Assembly: GCA_030683105.1 (NCBI GenBank) | Contig: JAUXMZ010000012.1 | Location: 50,899 to 114,898, forward strand | Length of the DNA stretch: 64,000 nucleotides | Source of the DNA: Burkholderiales bacterium | GTDB lineage: Bacteria; Pseudomonadota; Gammaproteobacteria; Burkholderiales; SG8-41 | Reading direction: 5' to 3' | Part shown: piece after piece, positions 16,949 to 53,235 of the stretch | Layout of the letters: each line of letters opens with the position of its first letter | How positions within the stretch are numbered: position 1 is the first letter of the stretch | Position numbers and translations under genes: made by a program | The notes under the pieces: generated by a model | What the model was told of the DNA's origin: nothing | What the model saw: the letters and a program-made list of their open reading frames with translations, nothing else | Database searches by the model: none

Positions 16949-16968
16949 TTCATCTCAAATTCAAAAAA

Positions 16969-17160
16969 AGCATGAACACGAAGGAAAATCAAAAACTGAA
17001 AAGCAATGACACGAAGGACACGAAGGAAAATCTTTAAAAAATATTAACCACATGATTCATACAGAACTTGGTTGTAATTGTTTATTTTTATTTGTTTTAC
17101 CTTCGTATCCTTTGTGTACCCGTCGAGCGGGTATTGAAAAGAATCCTTCGTGTTTATGCT
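16969..17160. repeat. Inverted pair of period-9 repeats (acacgaagg / ccttcgtgt)
   Basis: aacacgaagg...gacacgaaggacacgaaggaaaatc (left) and ccttcgtatcctttgtgt...ccttcgtgttt (right) flank an AT-rich spacer. Confidence 0.7.
17118..17144 (+). repeat. 27-bp hairpin-tail element, copy B
   Basis: ACCCGTCGAGCGGGTATTGAAAAGAAT; perfect stem TACCCG/CGGGTA; interrupts the period-9 repeat cctttgtgt|ccttcgtgt. Confidence 0.8.
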
Positions 17161-17345
17161 TTGATTTGGTCTTCCCTTGGCGAAGCTTTGCGCCCTTCGC
17201 GTTCATGCTTTGTTTTTAAAGGTAAGGAAACTCTATAACCTGTTGTATTTATTATATTATTACTCAACGTCCCGGGTGGCGTGCTGCCCCGTATTGTGTC
17301 GACCGCAGCACGGGGTGCGCGATTGTCCCACATAATCACTCGTGC

Positions 17346-25874: not shown

Positions 25875-26075
25875 CATTGACACAAAGGACACAAAGGGTT
25901 CTTCTCAATACCCCCTCGAGGGGTACACGAAGGAAAAACAAGAAAAAGATAAATTTCCTTAGCATTTTTATTATACAGCCGACCTCCTGTGGCAACGGCA
26001 AGCTTGCGGAGCTTTTGCACTCATGACGTGTTTTGATCTTCCTTTGTGTCCTTTGTGTCCTTCGTGTTTCAGCTT
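25875..26075. repeat. Inverted pair of period-9 repeats (gacacaaag / cctttgtgt)
   Basis: gacacaaaggacacaaagg...acacgaagg (left) and cctttgtgtcctttgtgtccttcgtgttt (right). Confidence 0.75.
25898..25924 (-). repeat. 27-bp hairpin-tail element, copy C
   Basis: Reverse complement ACCCCTCGAGGGGGTATTGAGAAGAAC; deletion leaves gacacaaag-gacacaaag-gacacgaag-g exactly. Confidence 0.8.
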
Positions 26076-49515: not shown

Positions 49516-49578
49516 AGCCGCCGATGAATTCACTTTTATACCCGCTTGACGGGTATAAAAGTGAATTCATCGGCGGCT
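49516..49578. repeat. 63-bp perfect hairpin (29-bp arms, 5-nt loop); contains copy D of the 27-bp element
   Basis: agccgccgatgaattcacttttatacccg-cttga-cgggtataaaagtgaattcatcggcggct. Confidence 0.85.
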
Positions 49579-53153: not shown

Positions 53154-53235
53154 GCCACAGAGGACACAGAGTTCACAGAGAGTGCCAAGTTCCTTCTTGC
53201 GGATTTTCCTCTGTGTCCTCTGTGATCTCTGTGGC
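53154..53235. repeat. Inverted pair of cacagag-type short-period repeats in the sat-aprB gap
   Basis: gccacagaggacacagagttcacagag (left) versus ctctgtgtcctctgtgatctctgtggc (right). Confidence 0.8.

Follow-up and report, generated by a model that had tools for sequence, protein, structure and literature searches.

The locus and the repeated unit

Copy B of the element lies between recQ and a PIN-domain gene, within a window of 64,000 nucleotides taken from a draft metagenome-assembled proteobacterial genome of 4.12 Mb. Read from the window sequence, positions 17100-17153 run ccttcgtatcctttgtg-T-ACCCGTCGAGCGGGTATTGAAAAGAA-tccttcgtgt, and the 27-nt unit, a pyrimidine followed by a 26-mer, interrupts an array of period 9 (Table 1). 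A T stands on either side of the insert, so that deletions of 17117-17143 and of 17118-17144 are equivalent. The preliminary description had reported that such a deletion rejoins two 9-bp units; this is what we find, with the sequence as it was given there, and the exact restoration noted for copies A (period 7) and C (period 9) is likewise confirmed. The fourth copy in the window, D, is outside any array, its left flank being its right flank inverted. The palindrome around it, at 49517-49577, looks like a flank inversion of the sort that template switching or fold-back synthesis at the hairpin would produce. The 27-mer was absent from each of 100 shuffles of the window, and an Rfam scan of 16950-17330 returned nothing above the gathering score, with matches at chance level only.

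Table 1. Copies of the 27-nt element and their host repeats in the window
Feature	Position	Strand	Remarks
Copy B of the 27-nt element (Y + 26-mer)	17117-17143	+	T on both sides, equivalent to 17118-17144
Left host units of copy B, CCTTCGTAT-CCTTTGTG	17100-17116	+	Period 9; GTG directly abuts the insert
Right host unit of copy B, TCCTTCGTGT	17144-17153	+	Period-9 array resumes
Inverted partner arm of the copy B host repeat, GACACGAAGGACACGAAGG	17008-17027	-	
Copy A, T + ACCCCTCAAGAGGGTATTGAAAAGAA	10556-10582	+	Period-7 TGACTGG host
Copy C, T + ACCCCTCGAGGGGGTATTGAGAAGAA	25899-25925	-	Period-9 CCTTTGTGT host
Host array beside copy C	25881-25897	-	Inverted partner at 26040-26067 (+)
Copy D, T + ACCCGTCAAGCGGGTATAAAAGTGAA	49529-49555	-	Centre of a 61-bp perfect palindrome, 49517-49577
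Inverted pair of CTCTGTGTC arrays	53156-53233	.	Without element; unfilled host of the same type

The host arrays come as inverted pairs (17008-17027 with 17100-17153, 25881-25897 with 26040-26067 and, empty, 53156 with 53208), and some of them are part of a longer dispersed repeat. Their GT-rich units, CTCTGTG, CTTCGTG, ATCGGCG and CTTGGCG, are arranged in inverted pairs 50-160 bp apart (17008-17153, 25881-26067 and 53156-53233), like the arms of dispersed inverted repeats. Sequences similar to the GT-rich arrays also occur in distant proteobacterial lineages (L171, L174, L185 and L187).

With up to three mismatches allowed, the genome holds 103 copies of the 27-mer, 51 forward and 52 reverse, against none for the reversed control. 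The consensus of the unit is 5'-Y-ACCCN-TCRAG-N'GGGT-RTTRAAAAGAA-3', drawn from 206 distinct copies in the window genome and others; these copies are partly non-independent, some sharing flanks or moving as composites, and statistics beyond the window genome refer to loci retrieved via the element itself. Its shape is a stem of 5-6 bp with a 5-nt loop, followed by a 10-nt A-rich tail. The variable inner stem pair is C-G in 104 of the 206 copies, G-C in 93 and A-T in 2. At the outermost, closing pair, 148 copies have T-A and 12 have C-G, and 45 show a C/A mismatch. Every G at the closing position pairs with C (Fisher p = 9e-8). Folded as single-stranded DNA, the 27-mer reaches -5.4 kcal/mol (z = -3.3 against shuffles), and the ACCCC variant stands out less from its own shuffles (z = -1.4).

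Exactness of insertion

Three mutually independent tests, using host period, nested hosts and paralogous empty sites, concur on a length of 27 nt. For the first, the host period was taken from one side of the insert and then compared across the junction. At 50 of the 69 testable copies, with periods of 7-10, the independently measured array period equals the junction period after removal of 27 nt; the same comparison succeeds at 9 copies when 26 nt are removed and at 4 when 28 nt are removed. If the host period is instead left free, 27 nt is not separated from 28-30 nt. The spacing of host units peaks at 9/10 (438/103), 36/37 (39/24), 63/64 (10/9) and 90 (5), that is in steps of 27, a ladder drawn from stretches chosen for carrying the element, so that the occupancy it indicates is not genome-wide.

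Since 27 is three times 9, restoration in a period-9 array is automatic for any in-phase replacement. The 27-mer might on this ground be three 9-bp units that were replaced or have degenerated, its phase trivially kept, and its length is indeed a multiple of the commonest host period. The identical unit, however, also occurs in period-7 and period-10 hosts, inside its own stem and in an unrelated palindrome, and has empty counterparts. No such ambiguity attaches to nested copies, to empty sites or to hosts of period 7 and 10, and these give the same answer. A replaced three-unit stretch is refuted by these hosts together with the nesting, the palindrome and the empty counterparts, and we give it practically no credence. 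Inserts of other sequence were not evident in the same arrays, among the 80 gaps listed out of 205.

Nested copies offer hosts of known sequence. In 27 of them, removing the pyrimidine and 26 nt leaves a host element of the full 26 nt, to which not a base has been added and from which none is missing. Their joints always follow a G, 19 of the 27 lying between AGCG and G and the rest at nearby Gs of the 3' stem arm. An exact-pattern scan found the nested composites again (n = 31).

An element-free paralogue of the host joint is present for 79 of 124 copies, at a threshold of at least 36 of 44 nt and with an ordinary copy serving as the empty site of a nested one. In the best pair (L258 filled, L248 empty) 44 of 44 nt agree, and the homology extends about 75 nt upstream and about 40 nt downstream. 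A second host type, the GCAGCCTGTCG palindrome, provides a like filled/empty pair in L265 and L276. Orthologous empty sites were also sought in a congener, where whole arrays were gained or lost and no clean filled/empty pair was found.

The copies could also have been spread passively, carried by larger inverted repeats or by gene conversion, with few real insertions among them. Shared flanks speak for this: they are seen in L024 and L025 and, over about 45 nt on each side, in the Desulfobulbaceae copies, and a 54-nt composite recurs. Yet the hosts are several unrelated sequences with several periods, and filled and empty paralogues of one host coexist, and we judge passive spread to be highly unlikely. 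We are confident that the 27-mer is a precisely inserting 27-nt mobile unit and consider that it is probably a very small non-coding mobile element. The earlier proposal that it inserts precisely into pre-existing short-period repeats thus stands, host periods, nested hosts and paralogous empty sites being in agreement; the excision and reinsertion by a repeat-specific mechanism that had been offered beside it finds no support here, no excision having been seen and no enzyme found.

Target site and orientation

Target statistics were compiled for 124 copies, from 1.39 Mb of genome around them. Arrays account for 69 of them; 38 are nested in another copy and 17 lie elsewhere, array-like joints being expected at 5.4% of random positions. 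Compiling and scoring the genome copies had been the check proposed in the preliminary description; with 69 of 124 in arrays and the junction period restored at 50 of the 69 testable copies, the contrary picture that it envisaged, of most copies lacking restored periodicity or flanked by ordinary target duplications, did not emerge.

A G precedes the insert in 121 of the 124 copies, and the last three host bases are GYG in 69 of 84. Array insertions all have one orientation relative to the repeat unit, their left flank ending in ..GTG, ..GCG or ..TCG on the element strand. Insertion is strand-specific relative to the GT-rich strand of the arrays.

The 5' base of the insert is T or C in 205 of 206 copies. 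In nested copies this pyrimidine is absent from the host and it must therefore be part of the insert. In 53 of the 206 copies the element is followed by a host A or G, or by a pyrimidine other than the 5' one, which excludes a general 1-nt duplication. In the commonest combination, T before T (120 copies), a 1-nt duplication is indistinguishable from its absence. The preliminary description had allowed for a target duplication of no more than about 1 nt; the table of pyrimidine against following base for the 206 copies rules out even a general duplication of that size.

Distribution across genomes

In the family to which the window genome belongs, 20 of 74 genomes contain the element, with 103, 68, 28 and 22 copies and then single digits down to 1. 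Genomes of one genus can differ widely, as do G000 (103 copies) and G001 (28) from G002 (1), and G013 (68) from G024 (0). Exact matches, among those listed, come from beta-, gamma- and deltaproteobacterial genomes (Desulfobulbaceae, Desulforhopalus), and one isolate, Thiobacillus denitrificans RG, is among the listed carriers, with one exact copy at the locus retrieved (L141). A viral contig (L188, IMGVR_UViG_3300025325_000181) has one copy in a (TGATGAG)n array and is a possible vehicle between hosts. The element has spread recently. Its exact sequence in distant lineages, along with its patchy amplification, points to horizontal movement of either the element or the machinery that would move it.

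Mechanism of movement

On our reading the element has inserted about 100 times in the window genome as an exact 27-nt unit, pyrimidine plus 26-mer, with no general duplication or loss. It joins directly after a G, mostly that of a GYG, in the short-period arrays of which the arms of larger inverted repeats consist; its other target is the 3' stem arm of a further copy, where it follows GCG. Without a gene of its own the element would have to be moved in trans, most likely by an enzyme to which the hairpin is presented on one DNA strand alone; such an enzyme may resemble those of the HUH (IS200/IS605) type but could be of another kind. The ends of the hairpin would then be joined to a nicked or hairpin-exposed target after the G. 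Since a hairpin, insertion at a short target, freedom from duplication and a fixed strand are all features of single-strand DNA transposition, a single-strand route is the one we favour, though only tentatively.

Candidates for the enzyme were sought among Y1 transposases (PF01797), which are found in 46 of 60 relatives, with or without the element. There are six RAYT-like Y1 genes in the window genome (L031-L036). Some of these have flanking repeats of their own (e.g. GGGGTCAGACTC/GAGTCTGACCCC), unrelated to the 27-mer. A survey of RAYT/Y1 linkage in the same genome and the 60 relatives found a copy at only one of 35 loci, about 0.7 kb off and in an ordinary array, and RAYT presence does not track element copy number. 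Clustering of ORFs from all loci, in search of a recurrent linked gene, yielded ordinary genes only, mostly distant from the copies.

These data bear on the idea that a resident REP-associated tyrosine transposase mobilises the element as a REP singlet. It does have a REP-like size, a hairpin and intergenic placement, and the six Y1 transposase genes might supply the activity. The mobile unit, however, has no GTAG or CGTC tag and begins at the stem, Y-ACCC, the bases upstream being those of the host. No RAYT is flanked by the element, the RAYTs seen carry other flanking repeats, and their presence is independent of element number; furthermore, the mobile REP unit is a doublet, not a singlet (PMC3116915). 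An origin as a REP singlet therefore appears unlikely.

Two further observations count against the favoured single-strand route. GC-skew orientation showed no strand bias, 57 of 110 copies being on the G-rich strand; insertion of IS200/IS605 favours one replication strand. Between the 5' joint and the foot of the stem there is a single nucleotide, which leaves no room for an internal 5' guide of the IS608 type.

An RNA-mediated route has also to be weighed, in which the hairpin would be reverse-transcribed from a small transcript by an enzyme acting in trans and would enter at a nick that follows a G. Of the six genomes with at least 5 copies, five carry a reverse transcriptase, against 21 of the 68 others, an association that is nevertheless small, confounded with general mobile-element load and uncorrected for phylogeny. 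Elhai et al. are said to have inferred RNA intermediates for the cyanobacterial small dispersed repeats (SDRs), which we count for this route. Against it, no reverse transcriptase was detected in a genome (G079, 84% complete) that has 22 copies and represents a second genus-level expansion, and the single RVT_1 match in the window genome has no copy of the element within the 3.5 kb inspected. Duplications or truncations, the usual traces of target-primed insertion, were not seen at the 27-mer joints. On balance we regard an RNA intermediate as doubtful, though less so than a REP origin. It is quite conceivable, though slightly less likely than not, that some enzyme or reaction so far undescribed lets a 27-nt DNA hairpin transpose in a range of proteobacterial lineages, joining it without duplication after GYG in hairpin-forming repeats.

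Relation to known short repeats

In 2008, Elhai et al. reportedly described SDR1-SDR8, small dispersed repeats of 21-27 nt in Nostoc punctiforme and its relatives. These are said to form hairpins, with compensatory changes in some families, to be placed in heptameric repeats and to insert into one another. The 27-mer likewise falls in the range of 21-27 nt, forms a hairpin, uses short tandem repeats as hosts, nests in itself, inserts precisely and has no gene of its own. In length and copy number, compensated stem-loop, embedding in tandem repeats and nesting it agrees with the SDRs, an agreement in kind that makes no claim to homology. It differs from them in belonging to Pseudomonadota and Desulfobacterota rather than a cyanobacterial subgroup, apparently in its sequence, in hosts of period 7, 9 and 10 lying in inverted arms and in a joint after GYG; exact filled/empty paralogues and the 27-nt spacing ladder are on the side of the 27-mer. 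SDR5 inserts precisely between nucleotides 3 and 4 of HIP1 (PMC4390886), and SDRs have been cited both as possibly mobile (PMC2884548) and as of unresolved origin (PMC3116915).

REPs and REPINs, like the 27-mer, are intergenic palindromes of 20-40 nt in high copy number, and CGTC repeats resemble it further in having no dedicated transposase and in that they can sit inside palindromes (PMC3733652, PMC3116915). The 27-mer is unlike REPs in the absence of a GTAG or CGTC tag and of RAYT linkage, in that no REPIN-like doublets were noted, and in having joints defined to the single nucleotide. Because the REP tag and RAYT linkage are missing and the likeness is to SDRs, we place the 27-mer with the SDR kind. 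It is probably a new SDR-like family, from beyond the lineage for which such repeats have been reported.

IS200/IS605 elements such as IS608 share with the 27-mer hairpin ends, insertion 3' of a short target and absence of target duplication. The 27-mer differs from IS608 in having no gene, one hairpin rather than two, no space for a 5' guide and no detected replication-strand bias. When membership of IS200/IS605 was assessed, no tnpA was found in the element, no autonomous partner with the same ends and no copies flanking a Y1 gene. The yeast mitochondrial GC clusters (GC42) are also very short palindromic mobile units with a constrained stem, whose mechanism is debated, but GC42 has two sets of AG target-site nucleotides whereas the 27-mer shows no general duplication (PMC4478555). 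Among the papers searched, none was found to contain the 27-mer sequence or to describe such elements in Proteobacteria.

Since empty sites can seldom be resolved to the base, it is still an open question how very short repeats such as REPs, SDRs and mitochondrial GC clusters come to spread. In the present case, nested copies provide dozens of hosts whose original sequence is exactly known and paralogous hosts supply empty sites, so that the joints are fixed to the nucleotide. The evidence on the insertion product is unusually complete for an element of the SDR kind. It sets the product that a candidate enzyme has to yield, an insert of 27 nt behind a G, in one strand orientation and free of any general duplication. 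The range of 0-103 copies among 74 genomes of one family forms a natural comparison for finding that enzyme. To our knowledge, the SDR phenomenon has so far been described only in cyanobacteria, and phenomena of this type are now widened to Pseudomonadota and Desulfobacterota. The 27-mer is one of the smallest DNA pieces seen behaving like a jumping element. If the reading with an undescribed enzyme or reaction is true, the 27-mer would rank with the smallest mobile units that are recognised autonomously, and the SDR process would be general in bacteria, not a cyanobacterial peculiarity.

Composites and variants

One 54-nt composite, an element within an element, is found in three different hosts (L233, L251 and L272). 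This suggests that the outer ends are sufficient for movement and that composites move as a unit. Among other nested copies, two (L015 and L184) have an outer element without its right half, explicable by deletion between two GGTATTGAAAAGAA direct repeats.

Desulforhopalus has head-to-tail arrays of the element with period 27 (L154, L156, L124 and L133). Further variants, with the tail ACTGAAAAGAG or ATTGAACTGAA, occur in the Desulforhopalus arrays within a different host repeat. At two loci of another genome (L292 and L309 of G001), elements of opposite orientation surround a related yet different sequence, CACCC(A/G)TCGA(A/G)CGGGCTATTTTCAGCAC, which perhaps represents a second, longer family.
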